Below, in pieces: positions 21,619 through 49,194 of a stretch of 49,194 bases of DNA (its first letter is position 1; every line of letters starts with the position of its first letter). The stretch comes from a virus, in the IMG/VR virus record IMGVR_UViG_3300045957_000036, positions 1 through 49,194 of that record; one strand, written 5' to 3'. The position numbers and the translations under genes are program-made. The notes under the pieces are model-generated. The model made no database searches and was not told where the DNA came from. It was given only the letters and a program-made list of their open reading frames with translations.

Positions 21619-22023
21619 TCAAGCAGCGGCGGCCCCTTCCTCGACCGACCCATCGTCGGCCGCCTCGCCATCGTCCTCGACCGCGGCCACCGGCTTCGGG
21701 GCCACCGTCTTGCCCTGCCGGGCGTCGTTGATCTCCAGGGCCATCTTCAGGAGCGGACCCTGGATGCCGCCCATCTCGGCCATCTGCTGGACGATCACGG
21801 TCTCCCAGCGGGACTGGAGGGCGTCGTCGCCGAAGTCGATCACGGCCTCGTGCAGGTCCCCGGCCGCGGCCCGCAGGTCCCGGGTCGACTTGGCCCGAGA
21901 GTCGGAGTCGACGACGGCGCCGAGCAGCTCCTTGCGGTGCTTCTCGTTCTCGGCCTGGTCCAGGGTCATCTCCAGGATCCGGCGTCGGCCGTCATCGGCC
22001 GGACTGCTGTTGGTGTTTCGCAT
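21619..22023 (-). CDS. Possible internal in-frame product of the Rep gene
   Basis: ATG 22023 (Rep codon 452) has a strong AAGGAG 7 nt upstream, in a stretch (ADQPTTRSNAMRNTN) that reads like a spacer. The 134-aa product MRNTNSSPADDGRRR is helical and ends in an acidic Ala/Glu/Asp tail. Either Rep is a fusion of two once-separate genes, or both full-length and short forms are made. Confidence 0.45.
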   Translation of the reverse strand: MRNTNSSPADDGRRRILEMTLDQAENEKHRKELLGAVVDSDSRAKSTRDLRAAAGDLHEAVIDFGDDALQSRWETVIVQQMAEMGGIQGPLLKMALEINDARQGKTVAPKPVAAVEDDGEAADDGSVEEGAAAA

Positions 22024-23376
22024 GGCATTGCTCCTTGTGGTTGGTTGGTCTGCTTGCGATCGTGCGGCCGAAGGGTGCTCGGCCAGGTCAGACGGTCGAC
22101 CCAGGATCGGGCAGCCGTCCTCGGTGTGCCGTTCGACGGCCACCGGTTCGTCCAAGTGCATCTCGGCCACGGCCGCGGCCCCGATGGGGTCGCTGACGGC
22201 CAGCTCGATGACGTCGCCCAACGTCGGGGAGCCCTGCCGCTGGTGCAGCTCCAGTAGGGCGGCCAGCTGAGGGTGAATCCACACCCTGGCCCCGCCCTCC
22301 CCCGGAGTCGACCACGGGTCCGGCATGTCGACCGGGCCGTACAAGCGGCGGACGTGCTGGAACCCCGACGGGATCCGCCTCCGGTTGGCCAACGAGGTGA
22401 GGTACTCCGTGAAGACAGCCAGGGCCTGCGTGTTCCCCCTGTGGGCCGCAGGAGCGACCTGAGAGAACACTTCCAGCGGCCCGTCCCCAAGAGGGCCCGA
22501 CGGGTCGAGCGGGCCGCCAGGGTCCATGGGACCGTCCCACCGGCCAGGGCCAGGCTCCGGGCCCCGGTCGCCGTCGAGCGGGTCCTGGTCGCCGAGCGGG
22601 TCGTCCTTCGGGGCCCGGCACTTCGGGCAGCCCTTGTGCTTCGGGTGACGGCAGTCGTTCTTCGGGTGGAGCGGGTCGTCCGGCTTGCAGTACTTCCAGA
22701 ACCCGAGCGAGGTGAACACCAGCTCGGAGTGCGCCGACCGGGGCGACGTCCGCCGCCCGGTGACCTTCTCGGCGTTGATCCGCCACGCCACCCGAACCTG
22801 GTCCCCGAACCAGTCGGCGTCGGCCGGGTCCCCGACGCAGAGCCACGCCACGTGCAGGTGCGGGTGCCAGCCGTGCTCCTTCGACCACAGGATCTGCAGC
22901 ACCGTGATCGCCGTCAGCACCTTCGCCCGACGGCGAGCGGCCCGGAACAGGCGCTGGTCCTTCAAGCGCCGCCACGACCCGAACAGCTGCCCGGTGACCA
23001 GGTCGAGCGAGTCGAGCTTCCGGTGAGGGACCGTCAACGCCGAGTGGACGATCCACCCGCCCGCGGCCTGATGCCTGCGGAGGTACTCGGCGCCCTCCTG
23101 CTCGGCGAGCTGCCACTGCATCGGGGAACACCAGGCGCACCGCAACGGCGACCGGCAGGCGACGAGCTGGCCGCCGACCATCCGCCCGGCCTCGGTCAGG
23201 AGCAGGCCGGGCCCGTCTTCCTGCCCGCCGATCGGGAGCCCGCACTGGGCCAACGTCGTGCAGTCCGGGTGGTCTCGGCACAGGCGACGGCCGAGGGCCC
23301 GCATCGCTGCTCTCGTGCCAGGCCCGAACCCGGTATCGGGCCTCGTCCTGGTCCCAACGGTCGCTGTGGTCGTCAC
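21619..23376 (-). CDS. HUH replication initiator (RepSA/Rep_1-like) with C-terminal extension
   Basis: 585 aa from GTG 23376. CRSPLRCAWCSP (about 74-85) is a Cys-rich entry motif typical of actinobacterial rolling-circle Reps. IVHSALTVPHRK (about 109-120) fits Rep motif 1, and HPHLHVAWL (171-179) is a clear HUH metal motif. Downstream come a Cys/His cluster around KYCKPDD to KGCPKCRAP, a Gly/Pro/Asp linker (260-300) and EYLTSLANRRR. The catalytic Tyr is not assigned. From Met452 a separate helical domain follows, with its own ribosome binding site upstream of that Met. Rep probably nicks the element's origin to start rolling-circle replication. It ends the FtsK/Tra operon, as in AICEs. Confidence 0.8.
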   Translation of the reverse strand: MTTTATVGTRTRPDTGFGPGTRAAMRALGRRLCRDHPDCTTLAQCGLPIGGQEDGPGLLLTEAGRMVGGQLVACRSPLRCAWCSPMQWQLAEQEGAEYLRRHQAAGGWIVHSALTVPHRKLDSLDLVTGQLFGSWRRLKDQRLFRAARRRAKVLTAITVLQILWSKEHGWHPHLHVAWLCVGDPADADWFGDQVRVAWRINAEKVTGRRTSPRSAHSELVFTSLGFWKYCKPDDPLHPKNDCRHPKHKGCPKCRAPKDDPLGDQDPLDGDRGPEPGPGRWDGPMDPGGPLDPSGPLGDGPLEVFSQVAPAAHRGNTQALAVFTEYLTSLANRRRIPSGFQHVRRLYGPVDMPDPWSTPGEGGARVWIHPQLAALLELHQRQGSPTLGDVIELAVSDPIGAAAVAEMHLDEPVAVERHTEDGCPILGRPSDLAEHPSAARSQADQPTTRSNAMRNTNSSPADDGRRRILEMTLDQAENEKHRKELLGAVVDSDSRAKSTRDLRAAAGDLHEAVIDFGDDALQSRWETVIVQQMAEMGGIQGPLLKMALEINDARQGKTVAPKPVAAVEDDGEAADDGSVEEGAAAA

Positions 23377-26747: not shown

Positions 26748-28616
26748 TCAGGCCAGGGTCGTCACGACGACGACGGCGAACACGAGCACCACGCCAGCGA
26801 GGCACGGTGCGATGATGAGACCGGGGGTCACTTCCCTCCGGGCGGTGACCGGCTTCGGAGTCCGGTCGGCGTAGTACGACAGGGCGAACACGTCGGCCGA
26901 GGCCCCGATGAGGCCGCAGACAGCGCACGCCCATCCGAGGGCACCGCCGAGCCATGGGGCGGCCACGAGGAACGCCACGAACAGCGGGATGCACGCCTTC
27001 AGGATCCGGCGCTGGGCGACGGTGAGCGGCTCCCGGCCTCCGTTGGTCCACTCGGCCGGAGCGGCGATCGGGTCGGCCAGCACCTGCTCGACCGGTGGCG
27101 GCCCGTGGGTAGCGGGCTCGCCGGGGACGACAGGGTGGGAGGGCTCGATCAGCTCGGGCGGCGTCATCGCCGGGTCGAGGGAATGCAGCTCAGCGTCCAC
27201 CCGGTCCGGGACCAGCTCCACGTTCGGGCGGGCATCGAGCGACGGGGGGTCGACCCACACGTCACCCGGGTCGTGCTCGCCGTCGGCCTCGACAACGGTC
27301 AGCACCGGGGGGACGTCATCGTTGCGGCCCTCGTCGAGCCACGCCTCCCGAGCCTCCTGCTCGAAGTAGGCCAGCTGCACCGGGGTGTCATCGACGACAC
27401 CGCCGAACTCGTTGTCCGGGGGCTTAGCGCCACGGGCCACGGCCCGGCCCCGCTTCGTCGCCGGGTTCGACAGCACCGCAGGGATCGCCGTGCTGGTCGA
27501 GTTCTCGAACACGACCGGGAACCACGTCGAGGCCAGGGCCCGCACCGCGACGACCAGGCCCATGTTCCGCAGGGCCTTCCCGCCGCCGACCGCGTCGACA
27601 TTCGGGTTCTGGGTCATGTCGATCAGGTGATGCCGGACCTTCGCGCCCTTCGCTGCGTGCTTGGCGTGCAACGCCCGGATCTGCTTCTTGCACTCCAGCG
27701 CGACCTCGGAATCAACGGCCCCGTCGGGCTCGAAGAAGTCCCCGCACTCGTCGGTGATGATGAGCGTCGGACGGCCGATCCACTGGACCCCGTCGCGCTC
27801 CATCCCCCACGTGTTGCACCGATGCTGGGCCTTCTCGCCCTCCCGCCGGTGCATCTCCTCGTCCAACGACTGCCAGACCGCAGCCGCCCGCTTGTAGTCC
27901 TCGTCGGTCGAGCCGAGCACCACGTCCTCGGGGCACAGCTCAGCGAACTTCAGGAACGTCGGGTCGTCGACCGTCGGGGAGATGATGACGATCCGCCAGC
28001 CCTTCTTCCACGCCTGAGCCGCGATCGCAGCAGCGGTCTCCGACTTACCGGACCGGGTCTTCCCGACCAGCAGCGCGTGCGGGTTCTCGACCGACGTGTC
28101 CCAGATCAGATCGGAGCCCTCCGACAGGCGACCCAGGTAGAACTGGTCGGCCGACGACGGCACCCTGGTCAGGTCGAAGATCTCCAGCTCGGGGAGCCGG
28201 AAGTACGACAGCACGACCCGCATGACGGGCATGTCACCGAGGCCCCGCTCACGCAGCAGCGGAGCGACCTGCTCGGGTGGCGCCATCAACGTCACCTGCG
28301 CCTCGGCGCCCTTCGACGACTTCAGGAAGTCCGGGATCTCAGTCCTCGGCTGCTGAGCGTCGAACGCCCCCGGCAGCCCGATGTCGAAGTACTCGACCTG
28401 CCGGTCCTCGTCCTTCCACCACCGCAGCAACGGCGGCACGTAGAACGTGCCCCGCTCGGCCGGGAGCACCTTCTTCATCCGGGAGCACCAGTCCGGCCAC
28501 TCGTACAGCATCCACTCCCACGCCGTCGCCCGATCAGACGGGAGAGCCCGCTGCTTCGGGTGGACCAGCTCGCCCAGCTCGAACTGGGTCAGCCCCGGCG
28601 AGTCATGACTGCTCAT
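26748..28616 (-). CDS. FtsK/SpoIIIE-like DNA translocase (Tra-type)
   Basis: 622 aa from ATG 28616 (MSSHDSPGLTQFEL). Walker A GKTRSGKS at 185-192 and Walker B LIITDECGDFF at 285-295. DMTQNPNVDAVGG after 330 fits the sensor region of the FtsK/TraB family. In Streptomyces plasmids and AICEs such proteins move double-stranded DNA between mycelial cells. Unusually, hydrophobic helices lie at the C terminus (about 540-575 and 595-620), not the N terminus. The gene heads a coupled operon with membrane proteins and Rep. It could also support particle-independent spread. Confidence 0.85.
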   Translation of the reverse strand: MSSHDSPGLTQFELGELVHPKQRALPSDRATAWEWMLYEWPDWCSRMKKVLPAERGTFYVPPLLRWWKDEDRQVEYFDIGLPGAFDAQQPRTEIPDFLKSSKGAEAQVTLMAPPEQVAPLLRERGLGDMPVMRVVLSYFRLPELEIFDLTRVPSSADQFYLGRLSEGSDLIWDTSVENPHALLVGKTRSGKSETAAAIAAQAWKKGWRIVIISPTVDDPTFLKFAELCPEDVVLGSTDEDYKRAAAVWQSLDEEMHRREGEKAQHRCNTWGMERDGVQWIGRPTLIITDECGDFFEPDGAVDSEVALECKKQIRALHAKHAAKGAKVRHHLIDMTQNPNVDAVGGGKALRNMGLVVAVRALASTWFPVVFENSTSTAIPAVLSNPATKRGRAVARGAKPPDNEFGGVVDDTPVQLAYFEQEAREAWLDEGRNDDVPPVLTVVEADGEHDPGDVWVDPPSLDARPNVELVPDRVDAELHSLDPAMTPPELIEPSHPVVPGEPATHGPPPVEQVLADPIAAPAEWTNGGREPLTVAQRRILKACIPLFVAFLVAAPWLGGALGWACAVCGLIGASADVFALSYYADRTPKPVTARREVTPGLIIAPCLAGVVLVFAVVVVTTLA

Positions 28617-29296: not shown

Positions 29297-29557
29297 ATGT
29301 TCGAGAACACCAAGCTCATCAAGCGAGACTCCAGCTGCGTCGGAGGCGACTGCGCCGCGGTGCTGGCCGTGAACGACACCCCCGTGGCGTTCGAGCGGGC
29401 CGGAGAGCCCGGGTACCTGGTTCAGGGCCAGGTCGACCTGACCGGCGACGAACGAGAGGCCGCCCGCATGGCGTTCGAGGCCAAGGGCATCGGGCAGGCC
29501 GACACCGAGGGCATCGTGTGGGTGCCCGCCAACGTGCTCGACGAGCGCGACGACTGA
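29297..29557 (+). CDS. Small protein of DUF5753/DUF6879 regulatory operon
   Basis: 86 aa starting MFENTKLIKRDSSCVGGDC, with GGAAGG about 12 nt upstream. GDCAAVLAVNDT, a YLVQGQVDLTGDE strand and VWVPANVL match the pattern of short actinobacterial proteins commonly encoded beside DUF5753 regulators (CP.V...D....VQG, then a valine-rich end), from memory. Function unknown. Confidence 0.62.
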   Translation: MFENTKLIKRDSSCVGGDCAAVLAVNDTPVAFERAGEPGYLVQGQVDLTGDEREAARMAFEAKGIGQADTEGIVWVPANVLDERDD

Positions 29558-29569
29558 AGGAGGACCCCG

Positions 29570-30097
29570 ATGGGGCTGGAGCTGAAGGACAGGCAGGATC
29601 TGTGGTCGAGCGTCGACCGGTCCATGTTCCACTTCGAGTGCCAGCGCGACTACGGCACCGAGTCGGAGACCCTCCGGGCGTGGCTCAACGACCCGACCTC
29701 GGTCCCGTCGCTCCGTGACGCCGAGCCCGGGTTCGACGGGTGGCTCGACATGGTCGAGTCCCACGTCGCTCGGGGCGTCACGGTGTCCAGGGTCCGGGTG
29801 TACGACTGGCCGATGACCGACTACCAGCGGTTCGAGGCGCACTTCGCTCGGGAGAACCTGGAGGCCGGAGAGACGATCCGGGTGATCGACCGGCGCCAGG
29901 CCGAGCAGTACGGGATCCTCCCCGCTGCTGGGCCGTGCGACTGGTGGATCCTGGACGACTCGACCGTCCTGGTGCAGCCGTTCGTGGACGGCCGAGTCGA
30001 AGGAGCGTTCCTGATCGACGACCCGGTCCTGGTCGGCCCCTACCTGGGGTGGCGTCGGGATCTGGTCGCCGCGGCCACGGCTGTCGGCGGCAACTGA
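29570..30097 (+). CDS. DUF6879 family protein
   Basis: 175 aa with strong GAAGGAGG before ATG 29570. The signature is the VSRVRVYDWPMTDYQRFEAHF block (about 66-86), then AGETIRVIDRR, DWWILDD and VQPFVDGRVEGAFLI. DUF6879 proteins are widespread in Streptomyces beside DUF5753 helix-turn-helix proteins, and their biochemical role is not established. The stop overlaps the next start as TGATG. Confidence 0.75.
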   Translation: MGLELKDRQDLWSSVDRSMFHFECQRDYGTESETLRAWLNDPTSVPSLRDAEPGFDGWLDMVESHVARGVTVSRVRVYDWPMTDYQRFEAHFARENLEAGETIRVIDRRQAEQYGILPAAGPCDWWILDDSTVLVQPFVDGRVEGAFLIDDPVLVGPYLGWRRDLVAAATAVGGN

Positions 30098-30960
30098 TGG
30101 ACAACCCGCTGCTGACGCAGTGGCTGACGCAGCCGGGGGGCCTGGCCCGACGTCTCGCCGACATGGCAGAACGGGCCGGGCTCAACGGCGCTGACCTGGC
30201 CAACCTCGTCGGCCGGGACCCCGGGACGATCTCCCGGTACCTGAACGGCCGAGTCGTCCCACCGGTCGAGGTGATCCGGGCGTGGTGCGAGGTGTGCGAC
30301 CAGGTCGAGCAGACGCAGGTGCTGTTGGACCTGCAGGCCGAGGCCGACGCGAAGAACATCCCGTGGCGGCGCAGGGTGGCCATCGGCGTCGAGGGCACTC
30401 AGGAGGCGTTCACCGTCCTCCACCGGCGCTCCACGCTGGTGCGGATGCACTCAGGCCCGTACATCCCAGGGCCTCTCCAGACCGGGGGATATGCGGCGGC
30501 GATGCTGGAGGCGTATGCACGCTCGGTCGCTGCGCCGGTAGAGGGGATCCGGGAAGCCGTGGAGCATCGGATGGCCAGGGCCGAGCTGGTCGGCACGACT
30601 GGCCACGACTACCGGTTCGTGATCCACGAGGCCGCCCTGATCTCGGGGCCGCCGTCCCACGAGACCCTCCTGGAGCAGGCCAACCACCTGATGGCCATGC
30701 TTCCGGAGTGCGACATCAGGATCCTCCCGCTGCGGGGCGGGCTCCCCGTGGTCGGCATGTCCACGTACGCGATCTACACGATCGACGACAGCCCGTTCGT
30801 GATCGAGGAGACCACGACCGACGACCACGAGTGGCAGACCGTCACCGAGGTCCAGGCGTTCGAGGCGCACTTCGAGCGGATGACCGACGCGTGCGTCCCG
30901 GTCGAGGAGACCAGGGACGTGATCGACCTGGCCCGACGGCGCCTCGCAGCCCTCATCTGA
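30097..30960 (+). CDS. XRE-type HTH regulator with DUF5753 domain
   Basis: 287 aa. The N-terminal HTH (about 15-55) has LADMAERAGLNGADLANLVG and DPGTISRYLNGR. The DUF5753 domain follows, with HSGPYIPGPLQTGGYAAAML (about 125-144) and a basic-acidic HRMARAELV helix, then IHEAALI and ILPLRGGLPVVGMSTYAI. This family includes Scr1-type antitoxin-like regulators of Streptomyces. It is transcribed divergently from the Tra-Rep operon, so repression of transfer and replication is the most natural role (inference). Confidence 0.85.
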   Translation: MDNPLLTQWLTQPGGLARRLADMAERAGLNGADLANLVGRDPGTISRYLNGRVVPPVEVIRAWCEVCDQVEQTQVLLDLQAEADAKNIPWRRRVAIGVEGTQEAFTVLHRRSTLVRMHSGPYIPGPLQTGGYAAAMLEAYARSVAAPVEGIREAVEHRMARAELVGTTGHDYRFVIHEAALISGPPSHETLLEQANHLMAMLPECDIRILPLRGGLPVVGMSTYAIYTIDDSPFVIEETTTDDHEWQTVTEVQAFEAHFERMTDACVPVEETRDVIDLARRRLAALI

Positions 30961-43061: not shown

Positions 43062-44699
43062 CTACCCGACCTGCCGGGACGCAGCCGAACGAGCCCTCGA
43101 TCGGCGCTTCGGGGCCAGGATCAGCTGGTTGAACGCCAGAGACCCGGCGTCGACCTGATCGTCATGCGAAGCGGCGCCCTCGACGTCGAACTGGGCGTGC
43201 TCCCTCACGAACGCAGCGTTCCAATCGGCCCGCACCAGGTGGATCTGGCCACGCTGCTGCGCCGCGGCGTACGCCTCGGCCCGGTACGTCTTCGAGCCCT
43301 TCGGGGGGACCAGGTCGTGCGGGTGCCCGGCGAGGATCTCCCGCTGCCACCGTCGCCGCCACGCCTTCCCAGCCGCCCCCGGCTGGTCCTCGATCGCTTG
43401 CCGGAGGAACGGGCCCCCGAAGTCCTCGCCGTCCTCGTCGGCCGTGTCGGAGACCGTCTGCTCGACCTTCGCTGAGCCCCACTGGCCGCGGCGGACATCG
43501 ATGATGAACAGGTCGCCGGTGGTGCGGGACTGGGCCATCAGGACGCCGACGGTGTAGTCGCCGCCGTCCTCGGTGGCGGCCAGGTCCCAACCGCGGCGCA
43601 GGATCAGATCCGAGGGGAGCTGGTGACGGTCGATGTACTTCCACATCTCCCGCCGGAACATCGTCCCCTCGATGCTGTCGGTGTCGTGCTGCTTCTCCGA
43701 CAGGAACGCCGCGAGGCCCTCGTCGAGGAGCTGCTGGTTCGACACCTCGATCCCGAGCACATCCGGCCACGTCGGCGTCCCGGACACGATCCGGTGGCGG
43801 GTCAGGCCCTGCTCGTCCTCGTACGTCTCGGTGACCAGGTCTTCGATCTGGGGGATGGGGCCGACCATGAGCCGGTCGCCGAGGAAGTCGGCCCGCCCGT
43901 CGAGCATCCTGGCCATGATCGAATCCGAGTGGATCTTGTTCTGGATGTAGAAGATCACGGCGTTGGTCGCCGCGGCGGGGATGATCGACCTCGTGAGCAC
44001 ATCGATCCGCTTCTGAGTCATGTACGGGGTGTCGACGTACTCCTCGATGTCGTCCAGGACGATGATCCCGGGCCGCATCTCGTCGACCTTCACGCCACGC
44101 ATCCCCTGGTCCATCCCGAACGCATCGAGCGTGAAATCGGAGTTGGTGCGGATCCTGGAGCGGCGCCAGTCCCGCTTCGTGCCGGTGCCGGTCTCGTACA
44201 TCTGCGAGACCTCCGGGTAGATCGACCCCACGGCGTTCGAGACGAGCAGCTCCCCGACCGCGGCGACCTTGTCCTCCACCGCCGACTGGGCCAGGCCCAC
44301 GTAGATCCCGTAGTTCCGCATCCGGTAGCACGCCAGATACAGCAGGGCCAGCTGCACCGAGGTGGTCTTCCCGCCGCCACGAGGCCAGCACGCAACCAGC
44401 GGCCTCGGGCGCTTCTCGTCGAGGCGGACGAGCCAGTTCCAGAACTGCCGCTGGTACGTCGAGAACCCCGACACGTACCCGGGGGCCAGGGACTGGAGCC
44501 ACAGCTCCCACCAGCCGACCTCGCCCATCACGTAGACCAGGTCGCACTCCTCAGCGTCCCGGTTCGGGCCCGACGGCATCGCGAAGACCCGCTCGGCCTG
44601 GTCGAGGATGGCCATGGCCAGCTCGGACTCCAGGTCGACCGTCCCATCCTCCAGACGAGGGACGAGGACCCGATCAGGAGGGGCTTCGAGGAGCGTCAC
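43062..44699 (-). CDS. Large terminase subunit
   Basis: 545 aa, GTG 44699, 2 nt after the small terminase stop. Walker A WPRGGGKTT (106-113); Walker B IIVLDDIEEY (about 212-221); C-terminal nuclease part with RGWDLAATEDGGDYTVG and ASHDDQVDAGSLAFNQL, the late Asp motif. A two-domain packaging motor and nuclease for phage DNA. Length is in the normal range. The portal it docks on is encoded 28 kb away. Confidence 0.92.
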   Translation of the reverse strand: MTLLEAPPDRVLVPRLEDGTVDLESELAMAILDQAERVFAMPSGPNRDAEECDLVYVMGEVGWWELWLQSLAPGYVSGFSTYQRQFWNWLVRLDEKRPRPLVACWPRGGGKTTSVQLALLYLACYRMRNYGIYVGLAQSAVEDKVAAVGELLVSNAVGSIYPEVSQMYETGTGTKRDWRRSRIRTNSDFTLDAFGMDQGMRGVKVDEMRPGIIVLDDIEEYVDTPYMTQKRIDVLTRSIIPAAATNAVIFYIQNKIHSDSIMARMLDGRADFLGDRLMVGPIPQIEDLVTETYEDEQGLTRHRIVSGTPTWPDVLGIEVSNQQLLDEGLAAFLSEKQHDTDSIEGTMFRREMWKYIDRHQLPSDLILRRGWDLAATEDGGDYTVGVLMAQSRTTGDLFIIDVRRGQWGSAKVEQTVSDTADEDGEDFGGPFLRQAIEDQPGAAGKAWRRRWQREILAGHPHDLVPPKGSKTYRAEAYAAAQQRGQIHLVRADWNAAFVREHAQFDVEGAASHDDQVDAGSLAFNQLILAPKRRSRARSAASRQVG

Positions 44700-44701
44700 G
44701 G

Positions 44702-45223
44702 TCAGTTCTGCGAGGCTTTCTCACGCCGAGCGCCGAGAAGCGGGCCGAGGGCCGTCTCGACCCCGGTCACCGACGTCCGCATCGGGCCACCGCCAGGGCC
44801 GGAGTGCTCCAGCCGCTGAGCAGCCGGACGGAAGTTCTCCGGGTCGATCATCTCCAACAACCGGGCCGCGGCCCGCCAGTCGTCCCTCGCGGCGCCACGC
44901 ATCAACGTCATCAGCTCCACCACCGAGTTGCTCCTCGCGCGCGTGAATGCCTGCACGAAATGCACGTACATGCGGTGGTTCTTGGGGACTTGTTTCATGT
45001 CGAATGGGTCGGCGTCTGGTTGTTGGTCGAGGTAGTGGCGTCCGCGGGAGAGCCAGTTGGCGAGTGCCCGGTCGGAGACGCCTGCGTATCCGGCGGCGTG
45101 GGTTTGGAAGTTCCCGATGCGGAGGGCGTCGAGGATCTTGGCGCCTTTGCTGCCTTCGGCCCATTCTCCGGTCTTGGGGTTGTAGCCGTCCGCCAGGTCG
45201 GGTCGTCGTCCTCGGGTGGCCAT
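44702..45223 (-). CDS. Small terminase subunit
   Basis: 173 aa starting MATRGRRPDLADG, with GGAG about 5 nt upstream of ATG 45223. Residues 20-60 form an HTH: SKGAKILDALRIGNFQTHAA, then AGVSDRALANWLSRGR. This recognises the pac/cos site in related systems. The central HFVQAFTRARSNSVVEL suggests the oligomerisation helix. A change in synonymous codon use (CAA, CCA, AAA, CGC early; CAG, CGG later) occurs near 44,945 within the gene. Confidence 0.8.
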   Translation of the reverse strand: MATRGRRPDLADGYNPKTGEWAEGSKGAKILDALRIGNFQTHAAGYAGVSDRALANWLSRGRHYLDQQPDADPFDMKQVPKNHRMYVHFVQAFTRARSNSVVELMTLMRGAARDDWRAAARLLEMIDPENFRPAAQRLEHSGPGGGPMRTSVTGVETALGPLLGARREKASQN

Positions 45224-45269: not shown

Positions 45270-45947
45270 GTGATTTGCGATTCGTTGATGGTGCTGGCCC
45301 CGCATTGTGATGATGAGACGATCGGGTGTGGCGGGCTGATCGCTCGGGTGTTGCGTGAGGGGGGCAGGGCGACGGTAGCTGTGCTGCGGGACGAGGGGCC
45401 GGTGAGGTGGGCTGAGATGGACGCCGCGGCCGGTGTGTACCGGCGGTCGGGTGGGGTGTTCCACGTTGAGCGTGCGGTGGTCCCGGAGTTGCAGGTCACC
45501 CTGTCGGACTGGTTGAACAGCTACCGGACGGATCTGCTGGTGAAGATCATCGAGGGGTTCCTGGAGCGGGACCGGCCGGAGTTGGTGGTCATCCCGTCCC
45601 CGGCCGAGACGCACCAGGAGCACAAGGCGGTCTACGAGGCGGCGATGATCGCGATGCGCCCGTCGGGTGGGACGGACAGGTGGCGGCCACCGAGGATCGT
45701 GACGTTCGAGCACCTCGCCGACGCCTGGCGCAGGACGACTCCGGTGGTTCCGGCGTCGTGGTACGTCGAGCTGAAGCTCCCCGACATCGTGATCCAGGGG
45801 GAAGCGATGGCAGCCCACGAGTCGCAGGTTCGGCCACCGCCCTCAGAGCGGTCCTTGGAGGCACTCCAGAACCTGGCCAAGGTCAGAGGGGCCGAGGCCG
45901 GGGTGGAGTGGGCAGAGGCGTTCGCTGTGCTCCGGTGGCTGTCGTGA
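45270..45947 (+). CDS. PIG-L family (N-acetyl-sugar) deacetylase
   Basis: 225 aa from GTG 45270 (ATG 45288 is an alternative). The family motif is APHCDDETIGCGGL (10-23; His12, Asp14/15 zinc and catalytic residues) with the second metal motif ETHQEHKAVYEA at about 113-124. PIG-L enzymes deacetylate N-acetylglucosamine-type sugars or related amides. Coupled (GTGA) to the WbqC-like gene. Together with the nearby glycosyltransferase this suggests amino-sugar chemistry; the target (DNA base or a surface glycan) is unknown. Confidence 0.82.
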   Translation: MICDSLMVLAPHCDDETIGCGGLIARVLREGGRATVAVLRDEGPVRWAEMDAAAGVYRRSGGVFHVERAVVPELQVTLSDWLNSYRTDLLVKIIEGFLERDRPELVVIPSPAETHQEHKAVYEAAMIAMRPSGGTDRWRPPRIVTFEHLADAWRRTTPVVPASWYVELKLPDIVIQGEAMAAHESQVRPPPSERSLEALQNLAKVRGAEAGVEWAEAFAVLRWLS

Positions 45948-46615
45948 CCACCGTCTGCGTGGTCCAACCGAGGATCCTGCCGCCCCTGTACTTCCTGAGG
46001 CGGATGGTCGACGCCGACATCACGGTGTTCCTGACGACCGCCCAGTACACGAGGAAGTCGAAGGGCCCGGACGGGAGAGCCGAGTTCACCGGGCAGTCCC
46101 ACTTCCGGATGACGAACGAGTGGGTCGGGGTGCCTCTGTTTGGGCCGCGGCGGGCCCCGCTCGACCAGGTGAAGGTGTCCAGGGAACCGCAGGCCCTCGG
46201 GAAGCTGGAGATGGCGGTCCGACCGATGGACGAGCACGCCCAGTGGTTCATGGGTCACGTCCGCCGGGCCGGGACCCTGGCCCAGCTCGGAGTCGCTCAC
46301 CTTCAGGATCTGAACGACCAGCTCGGCCTGGGGCTGGTCATGGCGACCGACCGGGAGATCGGGGTCACCGCAGACCAGCACGAAGGCACCGACTGGATGC
46401 TGGCCATCGCGAAGGCCGTCGGAGCGACCGTCTACTCGGCAGGCGGGTCCGCGGTCATCCACTACCTCGATCCCCTGAAGTTCGAGGACGCAGGAGTCAG
46501 AGTCGAGATCCAACGCTGGGACGAGCAGACAGCCCCGACCGTTGCTGTGCCGGGGCTGTCCGTGTTCGAGTGGATGAGGTGGGCGCCGCTCGATCTCGCC
46601 GAGCGGCTCGCCTAG
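45944..46615 (+). CDS. WbqC-like family protein
   Basis: 223 aa; GTG 45944 overlaps the PIG-L stop. CVVQPRILPPLYFLRRMVDAD and TTAQYTRKS match the WbqC N-terminal block, and ADQHEGTDWMLAIAKAVGATVY plus IHYLDPLKFEDAGVRVEIQRW the C-terminal part. WbqC members occur in O-antigen and sugar-modification clusters; their reaction is poorly defined. Converges on the next gene, sharing a 4-nt CTAG stop overlap. Confidence 0.75.
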   Translation: MTTVCVVQPRILPPLYFLRRMVDADITVFLTTAQYTRKSKGPDGRAEFTGQSHFRMTNEWVGVPLFGPRRAPLDQVKVSREPQALGKLEMAVRPMDEHAQWFMGHVRRAGTLAQLGVAHLQDLNDQLGLGLVMATDREIGVTADQHEGTDWMLAIAKAVGATVYSAGGSAVIHYLDPLKFEDAGVRVEIQRWDEQTAPTVAVPGLSVFEWMRWAPLDLAERLA

Positions 46616-47229
46616 CAGATCGTGCCCTGCAAGCCCTGGGCCACGGCCTCCTTGCCCTGCAGCTTCGCCGTGTCCTCCGAGTAGCCCCGCATCACGATCT
46701 CCAGGTACGGGTTCGGGATGTCAGCCTCGTTCTCCAGCTTGCACGCCTCCTCGAACCAGTGATCGATCCCCCGACCCATCCGGCGGCCCTCGGCGGTGTG
46801 CATGTCGAGGCAGTAGTCCGGGACCTCCGGGTCGAGCAGGTCGGTCTGCGCGTAGGTCGCCCAGATCGCATCGTCGATCACCCTGGACTTGGGGCAGTGG
46901 ACGAGCATGTGGACGGCGTGGATCAGCATGAGCCGCTCGGGGTGGTTCGGGTTGTTCTTGGCCTTCTGCTCCTGCCAGGTGTCGTACAGGGCCCGGATGT
47001 CGCCGACGAACCCGGGAGGGGCGGCCGGGCCGATGTCCTCGGAGACGATCACGAGGATCCGGCCCCACAGGTACTTGCCCTGCCCTGACTGGTCCAGCTC
47101 GACCGCATGGGTCAAGGCGAGATCGAGGTTCCCTCGGCGGACGGCCTTCTGGAAGATGCTGGTGGACTTCCCGACCGTCGAGCCCCTGAGGGTCGGCTGG
47201 CCGAAGAAGGGATATTTGGCGTTTGTCAT
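46612..47229 (-). CDS. Stand-alone MgsA/WHIP C-terminal-like domain
   Basis: 205 aa starting MTNAKYPFFGQPTLRG. TSIFQKAVRRGNLDLALTHA, YLWGRILVIVSEDIG (about 53-67) and LIHAVHMLVHCPKSRVIDDA resemble the clamp-loader-type C-terminal domain of MgsA (RarA/WHIP) proteins, but no AAA ATPase domain is encoded. It may modulate host fork-repair or replication complexes; this is inference from similarity by eye. Leaderless: 7 nt from a TACGTT -10. Confidence 0.58.
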   Translation of the reverse strand: MTNAKYPFFGQPTLRGSTVGKSTSIFQKAVRRGNLDLALTHAVELDQSGQGKYLWGRILVIVSEDIGPAAPPGFVGDIRALYDTWQEQKAKNNPNHPERLMLIHAVHMLVHCPKSRVIDDAIWATYAQTDLLDPEVPDYCLDMHTAEGRRMGRGIDHWFEEACKLENEADIPNPYLEIVMRGYSEDTAKLQGKEAVAQGLQGTIC

Positions 47230-47236
47230 ACCGACG

Positions 47237-47256
47237 AACGTAGCATCCTGTGCCAC
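47237..47256 (-). promoter_or_regulatory. Leaderless promoter with GTRG-N9-CTAC repeat, no TTGACA
   Basis: -10 TACGTT (plus 47237-47242), 7 nt to ATG 47229; repeat GTGG-N9-CTAC at 47240-47256. No -35 match. Divergent from the 47288 promoter. Confidence 0.6.
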
Positions 47257-47287
47257 GGCTGGGGCGGGTGAGTCCCACAATTTTCGC

Positions 47288-47301
47288 TACCGTCCCCCAT
47301 C
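47288..47301 (+). promoter_or_regulatory. Candidate -10 for ParB-like gene, leaderless
   Basis: TACCGT at 47288-47293, preceded by GC as in the other -10 boxes, then 8 nt to ATG 47302. No GTRG arm at the usual distance. Confidence 0.45.
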
Positions 47302-47967
47302 ATGCCCGACAAGCCAGCCGTAGCCGCCGACGACATCGAGATCGTGGACATCGACAGCCTCGTCCTCGACCCGCACAACGCCCGCCGCGGGTCGATCGCG
47401 AAGATCGTCGAGTCGATCGAGGAACACGGGCAGCACCGGCCCGCGGTGTGCCGACGAGAGGACCGCACGGTCACCGTCGGGAACCACATGATCCAGGCGA
47501 TGCTCCAGCTCGGCTACACGCAAGTCGTGGTCTGGTGGAAGGACGACGACGAAACCGAGGCGACCCGTAGGAGCCTGTCCGACAACATGTCCGGGGATCA
47601 GGCCACGTGGGACGTCCCCGGCCTCAAGGAGCTGCTCGACTCCGTCGGCCCCGACATCGCAGGCGGGGACGACGACCTGATCGCCCGCATCATGGCCGAG
47701 ACCGCCGCCGACGACCCGATCGACCGGCCCGAGTACCCGATCCAGGCCCGACCGGGCGAGGAGTACGACTACATCCTGGTGTGGGCCGACAACCAGATCG
47801 ACAAAGCGTGGCTGGAGACCTACTTCGGGACGAAGGTGAGGGGCTACAAGAACACCGCCACGAAGCGCACCCACATGTACGGCGTCTCCGAGCTGCAGGA
47901 ACGCATCGCGAGGATGGTGGCCGACGGGGCGCTCCCGGAGATCGAGGAGGCAGACGATGCCGAGTAG
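47302..47967 (+). CDS. ParB/Srx-fold nuclease-like protein
   Basis: 221 aa. ParB-type core: EIVDIDSLVLDPHNARRG (12-30), SIEEHGQHRPAVCR and TVGNHMIQAMLQLGYTQVV (57-76). The C-terminal region LETYFGTKVRGYKN is not a typical HTH, so a plasmid partition role is unlikely. ParB-like proteins of this kind are common in phages beside DNA-modification or methyltransferase genes. No ParA is encoded nearby. Stop overlaps the glycosyltransferase start. Confidence 0.8.
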   Translation: MPDKPAVAADDIEIVDIDSLVLDPHNARRGSIAKIVESIEEHGQHRPAVCRREDRTVTVGNHMIQAMLQLGYTQVVVWWKDDDETEATRRSLSDNMSGDQATWDVPGLKELLDSVGPDIAGGDDDLIARIMAETAADDPIDRPEYPIQARPGEEYDYILVWADNQIDKAWLETYFGTKVRGYKNTATKRTHMYGVSELQERIARMVADGALPEIEEADDAE

Positions 47968-48730
47968 CACCGACCTGTTCCAGATGGTCATTCTGTCGGC
48001 CGGTCGCGCCGAAGACGTGAAGACGCAGACGGTGTTCCCCACCGAGGAGCTGGTGCTCGTCTGCCCGGCGCACGAAGAGGACGCCTACCGGGACCACAAC
48101 CCCGACCTGGAGATCGTGGCCCTCCCCGAGGGGTTCCCGGCCGGTGAGGCCCCGGTGCGGCAGTGGATCATGGACCGGTGGCCATCGAGCATCCAGCTCG
48201 ACGACGACCTGGTCTACTTCCACAACATGGAGTCGCTCGACGGCAAAGCGATCAGGAAGCTCGGGCCCGATGAGGCGTTCGCCGTGATGCTGGAGATCGC
48301 CGGGATGGCCAGAGACGCCGGGATCTACCTGTACGGGCTGACCCCGTGGCCGCACCCGACCGCCTACCACTGCCAGATCCCGTTCCGGATCACCGGGTTC
48401 GTCATCGGCGGCGTCGTCGGGATCCACGAGGGCTCGAAGCTCAGGTTCAACCACCAGCTCACCGCCGCGTCGGACTACTGGCTGTCCGGCCTGAACGCCC
48501 ACTACCACCGGATGTGCCTCGTCGACTTCCGGCACTGCTGTTGGGACAAGGCCGGAACCTTCAGCCAACCGGGGGGCCAGCAGATGCACCGGTCGCTCGA
48601 CACCGAGGCCGAGGACACCCGCCTCCTCACGAAAGCGTTCGGCAGGGACGTCATCCGCCCGAAGAAGGGCAGCTCGATCAGCTCGCAGACGTCGTTCGGG
48701 TCGCAGCGGGTGCTGCAGATGCCGTTCTGA
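47957..48730 (+). CDS. GT-A-like glycosyltransferase (TET-associated type, putative)
   Basis: 257 aa. VILSAGRAEDVKTQ (11-24) and LVCPAHEEDAYRDHNP (34-49) give the nucleotide-sugar-binding half of a GT-A fold. APVRQWIMDRW precedes IQLDDDLVYF (79-88), a DxD-like metal motif. The order and spacing resemble the TAGT glycosyltransferases that Iyer, Aravind and co-workers described next to phage TET/JBP genes. It would add a sugar to a base or other acceptor. No TET is in the window; it could lie beyond the right edge. Confidence 0.62.
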   Translation: MPSSTDLFQMVILSAGRAEDVKTQTVFPTEELVLVCPAHEEDAYRDHNPDLEIVALPEGFPAGEAPVRQWIMDRWPSSIQLDDDLVYFHNMESLDGKAIRKLGPDEAFAVMLEIAGMARDAGIYLYGLTPWPHPTAYHCQIPFRITGFVIGGVVGIHEGSKLRFNHQLTAASDYWLSGLNAHYHRMCLVDFRHCCWDKAGTFSQPGGQQMHRSLDTEAEDTRLLTKAFGRDVIRPKKGSSISSQTSFGSQRVLQMPF

Positions 48731-48741
48731 CAGGAGGAACC

Positions 48742-49194
48742 ATGGACGAACCGACCAACCCCGTCTTCGCCGACTTCTACGGCTACGCCGACCGGCACGA
48801 CAAGCTCCACCGGATGAACGGCTGGAACACCCCGGAGGCCGCCCAGGCCCGACTGGTCGCCATCGCCGAAGCGGGGATCGGGGGCAGAGTGGTGGAGATC
48901 GGGTGCGGAACGGGTGCGCTCGCCCACCACGGCGACATCACCGTCTACGACGGGTGGGACATGAGGCAGGCCGTCCTGGCCAAGGCCCAAGACGGGCGCC
49001 CGCAGATCGGCGGGGCCAGCGAGTCCTGCCGGTTCCACCACGGAGACGGCCTTGCAGCCCTGTCATCGATCTCCGAGGGCACCGTGGATTGGGTGGTGGC
49101 CTTCGGGGTGTTCAGCCTGCTCCCGACCGATGACGACCCGGTGGAAGCCATGTACCTGCTCTACACGCAGGCCGCCCGCATCGGCGCCAACGTC
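48742..49194 (+). CDS. Class I SAM-dependent methyltransferase, truncated by window edge
   Basis: 151 codons visible from ATG 48742, with AGGAGGAA 2 nt upstream. Motif I VEIGCGTG (51-58) with acidic residues in ITVYDGWDM, then DGLAALSSISEGTVDWVVAFGVF as motif IV-like. It is a small-molecule or sugar type Rossmann methyltransferase by appearance, without a DNA-methylase NPPY motif in the visible part. Follows the glycosyltransferase by 11 nt. Confidence 0.75.
   Translation, partial: MDEPTNPVFADFYGYADRHDKLHRMNGWNTPEAAQARLVAIAEAGIGGRVVEIGCGTGALAHHGDITVYDGWDMRQAVLAKAQDGRPQIGGASESCRFHHGDGLAALSSISEGTVDWVVAFGVFSLLPTDDDPVEAMYLLYTQAARIGANV

Follow-up and report, generated by a model that had tools for sequence, protein, structure and literature searches.

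A recurrent terminase-adjacent PIG-L, ParB and TAGT gene cassette, found without TET, as a probable phage DNA modification locus

Introduction

A phage TET-TAGT pathway for the glycosylation of 5-hydroxymethylcytosine (5hmC) was reportedly described by Burke et al. in 2021. Here we analyse the IMG/VR virus record IMGVR_UViG_3300045957_000036, the whole of which (49,194 bases, classed as linear and probably a fragment) is referred to below as the window. In particular, we focus on a cassette at its right end, in which a gene for a TAGT-family glycosyltransferase lies among genes for a PIG-L-type N-deacetylase, a WbqC-family protein, an MgsA_C-like protein (resembling the C-terminal domain of RarA/MgsA), a ParB-like protein and a methyltransferase. 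This locus shares with the TET-TAGT pathway the TAGT gene and its ParB neighbour, as well as the PIG-L gene, which is present in the members of that pathway found here (Indlovu, Bolt007 and loci L091, L115 and L124). It differs in that searches of the window and of 17 related contigs gave no TET/JBP gene, the MgsA_C-like gene and either WbqC or an ATP-grasp gene being present instead, and in that its TAGT belongs to a separate clade.

The beta-glucosyl-HMC-alpha-glucosyltransferase of phage T6 belongs to the same Pfam family as the window TAGT (PF20691), carries the same conserved DDD motif and transfers glucose onto glucosyl-hydroxymethylcytosine (glucosyl-hmC) in DNA (PMC13216743). In T6, however, this is a second glucose, added to glucosyl-hmC made via dCMP hydroxymethylase, and no such pathway was found in the window. 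Versions with a GT-B glycosyltransferase, in DLP3 and Summit (Delepquintavirus) and in the Vibrio phages V-YDF132, PG28 and KarBoss, resemble the locus in having PIG-L, methyltransferase, glycosyltransferase, ParB and terminase genes in order, with WbqC also present in V-YDF132 and PG28 and an MgsA_C-like gene in KarBoss and Summit; they differ in the GT-B enzyme that stands in place of TAGT and in the WcaG/WecE sugar enzymes of DLP3, Summit and KarBoss. The loci of Shambre1 and Ligma share the ParB slot directly before the terminase, but a methylase or an ABC-GNAT protein replaces the glycosyltransferase. No description of the gene combination reported here was found in the open-access literature searched.

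Results

The right-end cassette

Genes were assigned through Pfam and PHROG profile matches, and a match is called over or under cut-off according to the curated cut-off of its family. The order at the right end is TerL (-), TerS (-), PIG-L (+), WbqC (+), MgsA_C-like (-), ParB-like (+), TAGT (+) and methyltransferase (+). An earlier note on this DNA, made from the sequence alone, had named the PIG-L, WbqC, ParB-like, TAGT and methyltransferase genes; all five and their coordinates proved correct, and the observation of a right-end cassette is confirmed, with the addition of the antisense MgsA_C-like gene, which had been overlooked.

Specifically, the PIG-L gene (45270-45947, +; PF02585, 1.6e-13) overlaps by 13 bp the WbqC gene (45935-46615, +; PF08889, 1.2e-10). 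The MgsA_C-like gene (46612-47229, -) matches PF12002 at 1.2e-5, under cut-off, and phrog_33349 at 1.7e-12. The ParB-like gene (47302-47967, +), assigned by phrog_723 (1.6e-25; Pfam ParB_N only 0.032), overlaps by 11 bp the TAGT gene (47957-48730, +), which encodes a GT-A glycosyltransferase. Comparison with hidden Markov models upheld the proposed TAGT identity of the latter, with a match to PF20691 at 2.7e-11 and 44.2 bits against a cut-off of 27.5. The last gene (48742-49194, +; PF13649, 9e-6, just under cut-off) encodes a class I S-adenosylmethionine methyltransferase and is truncated at its 3' end, where the contig stops. All motifs examined are preserved, namely the PIG-L metal motif (HCDDE, HQEH), the DDD of TAGT and the glycine motif of the methyltransferase.

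Recurrence of the gene set

PIG-L relatives in isolated phages provided the entry to a wider pattern. A PIG-L-anchored search of IMG/VR yielded 52 loci, among which 17 contigs cluster PIG-L, ParB, TAGT and MgsA_C-like genes; they include near-duplicates and represent about eight lineages on the TAGT tree described below. The MgsA_C-like gene was found in 17 of these 17 relatives, while WbqC is present in ten and an ATP-grasp protein, of two kinds, in seven, with both in none (11 versus 7 when the window is counted). The Pfam match of the ATP-grasp proteins is strong in one group (6.6e-24) and weak in the other (0.0077 and 0.017). In L105, L112 and L123, whose ATP-grasp-like gene belongs to the weak group, this gene lies between PIG-L and ParB and is followed by one that by eye resembles phosphatidylserine decarboxylase and has no Pfam match.

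Ten contigs besides the window have the PIG-L, WbqC, ParB, TAGT and MgsA_C-like genes as a group, and in eight of these the genes form a single co-oriented run. Terminase-like genes adjoin the cassette in all ten loci whose neighbourhood was read; TerS was confirmed by BLAST in two of them (L074 and L075), the remaining terminase calls being made by eye. In the window, the corresponding conserved neighbours are the small subunit (44702-45223, -; phrog_4102) and the large subunit (43062-44699, -; PF17289, 1.6e-6, and phrog_38, 7e-53). L074 has BLAST counterparts of PIG-L, WbqC, MgsA_C-like, ParB, TAGT, methyltransferase and TerS; its TerL adjoins TerS but shows no BLAST similarity to that of the window. 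Single-sequence searches for close relatives found none of TAGT or TerL in IMG/VR and none of TAGT in the genome collection, and in the phage collection neither TAGT nor WbqC had relatives at an E-value of 1e-5, WbqC having none even at 1. In conclusion, the gene combination is not accidental, and the same set recurs in unrelated contigs.

TAGT clades

In a tree of 74 TAGT sequences, which included no surface-glycan enzymes, the TAGTs of the PIG-L/MgsA_C type (P) and that of the window form one branch (support 100/99), those of the minimal ParB-TAGT type (M, see below) a second group (98/83) and the five TET-linked TAGTs a third (100/97). The T6 enzyme lies on a very long branch and its placement is unsure; the window branch is also long, and its exact position inside P is uncertain. 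Judged from these sequences, the TAGT clade agrees with the gene set, and the window TAGT stands apart from both the TET-linked and the minimal clades.

TET, MgsA_C-like and the acceptor base

A Pfam scan of the 66 other window proteins gave no TET/JBP, thymidylate synthase or DNA methyltransferase. The search of the window and the 17 relatives for TET/JBP also gave none, which does not imply absence from the whole genomes as these contigs are mostly fragments; five TET-type records were matched in the same search. Neither the window nor any of the 17 relatives matched thymidylate synthase (PF00303), IME392 being the sole match, and the C5 methyltransferase PF00145 is absent from the window and occurs in 2 of 33 records, which are one related pair. 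The earlier proposal of an already modified base as acceptor is left unsupported by these data.

Both TAGT and TET/JBP are present in five PIG-L loci: Indlovu, Bolt007, L091, L115 and L124. The Tet_JBP matches are weak and under the family cut-off in Indlovu (4.5e-5) and Bolt007 (1.4e-7), both values being per genome, and range from 4.7e-29 to 6e-20 in the other three. The matching proteins, Indlovu gp2 (L064, 809-1687), annotated as a queuine tRNA-ribosyltransferase, and Bolt007 gp65 (L066, 3308-4252), annotated as an oxidoreductase, are likely to be misannotated TET/JBP dioxygenases. MgsA_C-like had no match in the five TET loci, and TET none in the 18 P-type loci. By a naive count, so clean an 18:5 split of 23 loci has odds of 1 in 33,649, although the loci are related and in most cases fragments. 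We take the two sets to be variants of the same type of pathway, without concluding that MgsA_C-like replaces TET. PIG-L is also found in the hydroxymethyluracil-type locus of IME392 (HMUDK_hel at 3e-35, together with thymidylate synthase).

Properties of the individual proteins

The window PIG-L protein, which combines the PF02585 match with the metal-binding motif, is 40% identical to those of L074 and L075 and is predicted to deacetylate an N-acetylamino sugar. WbqC is predicted to act on the freed amine, on the basis of the ATP-grasp proteins that fill its slot in sister loci. Its structure model is of low confidence (predicted local distance difference test, pLDDT, 69) and had no significant match in the PDB; weak HUP-type neighbours (pantothenate synthetase, TyrRS and FAD synthetase) offer no more than a lead.

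Conservation within the set is highest for the MgsA_C-like protein, with 48% identity to its L074 homologue, and the match to PF12002, the C-terminal region of RarA/MgsA, is stronger in the relative L099 (7.7e-14) than in the window. It is predicted to be a DNA- or replication-associated adaptor. A C-terminal QxxLF motif like that of sliding-clamp binders is found in nine of the 20 MgsA_C-like proteins listed (for example in L103, L116, L067 and L084) and is absent from the window protein.

The AlphaFold model of the ParB-like protein (pLDDT 80) has an N-terminal ParB CTPase fold and a C-terminal beta-alpha-beta-alpha element. It matches ParB/Noc structures, including CTP/CDP-bound ParB, at 2e-6, while the C-terminal element has no structural match of its own; no ParA family appeared in the window Pfam scan. 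In TAGT, the GT-A DxD-type motif is DDD (residues 82-84), which does not vary among nine aligned family members, T6 included. A homologue of the truncated methyltransferase, predicted to be a tailoring enzyme, lies directly 3' of TAGT in L074 (4e-5).

Minimal ParB-TAGT modules and the ParB slot

The nearest phage match to the window TAGT is in the Streptococcus prophage Javan291 (2e-5), where the gene has a ParB-like gene upstream and the terminase genes downstream. Extension from this TAGT led to six loci in bacterial genomes and, once an alignment was used, to 49 in IMG/VR; an alignment of two sequences returned no matches and one of nine did. A ParB-like gene lies upstream of TAGT in 50 of 56 loci, usually overlapping it by 4 or 11 bp. 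In the remaining six, TAGT starts at most 350 bp from the contig end, so that all 50 loci with readable upstream DNA have the ParB-like gene. Downstream of the minimal-clade TAGT, terminase families predominate. L019 and the L045/46/48 group have a methyltransferase gene that separates TAGT from ParB.

Whole-record searches of the 50 minimal records found no TET, thymidylate synthase, C5 methyltransferase, PIG-L or WbqC; the TET search had no positive control here, the same model having found five TET records in the other search. Outside those 50, the genome locus L010 has a C5 methyltransferase gene with an intein near its ParB-TAGT pair. The view of PIG-L and WbqC as accidental cargo, taken from their absence in the minimal records, was overturned by the PIG-L-anchored search.

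Elsewhere, the same slot holds enzymes that modify DNA or are predicted to do so. In Shambre1, a ParB-N6/N4 methylase fusion lies next to the terminase, and TET is found in the terminase-adjacent ParB slot in Indlovu and L115. The Gordonia phage Ligma (L062, 1-4172) has ParB, an ABC-ATPase/GNAT fusion and a formyltransferase, followed directly by the terminase, and is predicted to carry another DNA modification in this slot; DNA bases are the predicted target of an ABC-GNAT pair (PMC7824862).

Cultured relatives with GT-B or variant cassettes

Phages of Vibrio, Arthrobacter and Stenotrophomonas carry versions with a GT-B enzyme. The Vibrio phage V-YDF132 has, in this order, PIG-L, WbqC, MgsA_C-like candidate (assigned solely by a 48-residue profile match at 2.8e-4), methyltransferase, second WbqC, GT-B transferase and ParB; the second gene past ParB in the related PG28 encodes the terminase large subunit. 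The V-YDF132 PIG-L gene (L065, 5989-6666), which aligns with PIG-L deacetylases, is termed an endolysin in the paper on this phage (PMC9413028). The Arthrobacter phage DanielleIgnace carries, within about 8 kb, an MgsA_C-like gene, a glycosyltransferase, PIG-L, WbqC, a second glycosyltransferase, ParB and a methyltransferase. The order in the Stenotrophomonas phage DLP3 is PIG-L, WcaG, WecE, methyltransferase, glycosyltransferase, ParB, a hypothetical protein and TerL. DLP3 DNA resisted all 15 restriction enzymes tried, for a cause not known to the authors (PMC7326821). This resistance may be taken as supporting, not decisive, evidence for DNA as the target.

Elsewhere in the window

Among the phage head genes of the window lie one gene that resembles a replication initiator and has an HPHLHV motif, one for an FtsK/Tra-like ATPase and one for an XRE-DUF5753 regulator with a DUF6879 neighbour (21619-23304, -; 26748-28616, -; 29297-30960, +). 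The Rep and FtsK assignments were made by eye, Pfam giving no match. The window is possibly an actinobacterial phage-plasmid or integrative-element hybrid.

Discussion

A function can be proposed from what was observed, namely the gene set with its order and conservation, the intact motifs, the clade of the TAGT and the adjoining terminase genes. We consider that the cassette makes a phage DNA modification, namely glycosylation with a deacetylated, N-acylated and perhaps methylated aminosugar, with a probability of roughly two in three. This reading is favoured because PIG-L accompanies TAGT and ParB in the TET loci, the TAGT clade agrees with the gene set, and the DNA of a phage with the GT-B version is restriction-resistant. 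Further points in its favour are the recurrence of the gene set in the 17 contigs, the ParB-like gene upstream and terminase families downstream of the minimal-clade TAGTs, the DNA-modifying enzymes, established or predicted, in the ParB slot of other loci, the presence of PIG-L in the IME392 locus and the action of T6 TAGT on DNA. The ParB-like and MgsA_C-like proteins would bring TAGT to newly replicated or about-to-be-packaged DNA, where TAGT would use a nucleotide sugar to attach an amino sugar, which is probably N-acetylated, to a base. PIG-L may strip off the acetyl group, acting either on the DNA or on the donor, and WbqC, or ATP-grasp in sister loci, may acylate or aminoacylate the free amine, as the replacement in this slot suggests; the methyltransferase would cap the product. 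The modification could protect against restriction or CRISPR, or serve as a mark for the terminase. The reading proposed in the earlier note, in which an N-acetyl sugar is added by the transferase, deacetylated by PIG-L and decorated by the other enzymes, thus stands as the best-supported explanation when DNA is the target, although not with a modified base as acceptor.

Several points weigh against this proposal. Neither the window nor the 17 relatives gave any known source of a hydroxylated base, though most of these contigs are fragments; DLP3 has a GT-B transferase in place of TAGT, and its resistance may stem from a different gene; WbqC lacks an established function; members of the TAGT family could use another acceptor; and the window contig is truncated. 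As to the acceptor, we tentatively suggest, as something possible but doubtful, that P and M clade TAGTs need neither TET nor hydroxymethyl precursors to glycosylate DNA. The sugar might be placed directly on an unmodified base, or a cassette protein such as MgsA_C-like, which occurs in the PIG-L/TAGT loci that lack TET, might create the acceptor; DNA bearing N-acylated aminosugars would result.

Phage transferases glycosylate virions in actinophages, and a glycosyltransferase with tailoring enzymes could decorate capsid or tail proteins, altering antigenicity or adsorption; sugar-tailoring enzymes beside packaging genes would fit a protein target equally. We regard this as unlikely, since the ParB-like and MgsA_C-like proteins conserved with TAGT are of DNA-associated families, the adjoining genes are terminase and not tail genes, a TAGT relative acts on DNA and a GT-B relative has restriction-resistant DNA. 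Modification of a cell-surface glycan, for superinfection exclusion or seroconversion, appears very improbable. WbqC and PIG-L are known from polysaccharide pathways too, and the DLP3 authors proposed lipopolysaccharide modification for their glycosyltransferase, but the window enzyme matches the TAGT family and no surface-glycan glycosyltransferase family, and groups with phage TAGTs in the tree, itself built without surface-glycan enzymes; moreover, the cassette is linked to ParB and terminase, and the window Pfam scans gave no flippase, polymerase or membrane glycosyltransferase family. We give no more weight to the idea that ParB-TAGT forms an independent system linked to packaging, with PIG-L, WbqC and methyltransferase as unrelated cargo. 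The 50 records with the minimal module alone would agree with it, as would the antisense gene that separates PIG-L/WbqC from ParB/TAGT in the window, but the five genes co-occur in the ten further contigs, mostly as one co-oriented run, and PIG-L adjoins TAGT in the TET loci.

The enzyme families are known and the pathway resembles TET-TAGT; what is provisionally new is the TET-less set with MgsA_C-like plus WbqC or ATP-grasp, together with its separate TAGT clade. If the cassette glycosylates DNA, phages would possess a class of DNA glycosylation that works without TET and uses tailored aminosugars. Amine acylation is a plausible role of WbqC, and MgsA_C-like stands out as a conserved and unstudied component. 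Cultured phages carrying versions of the cassette (the Arthrobacter phages DanielleIgnace and KellEzio, together with V-YDF132, KarBoss, DLP3 and Summit) are open to nucleoside mass spectrometry, and the cassette is a candidate genetic cause of the unexplained restriction resistance of DLP3 DNA.

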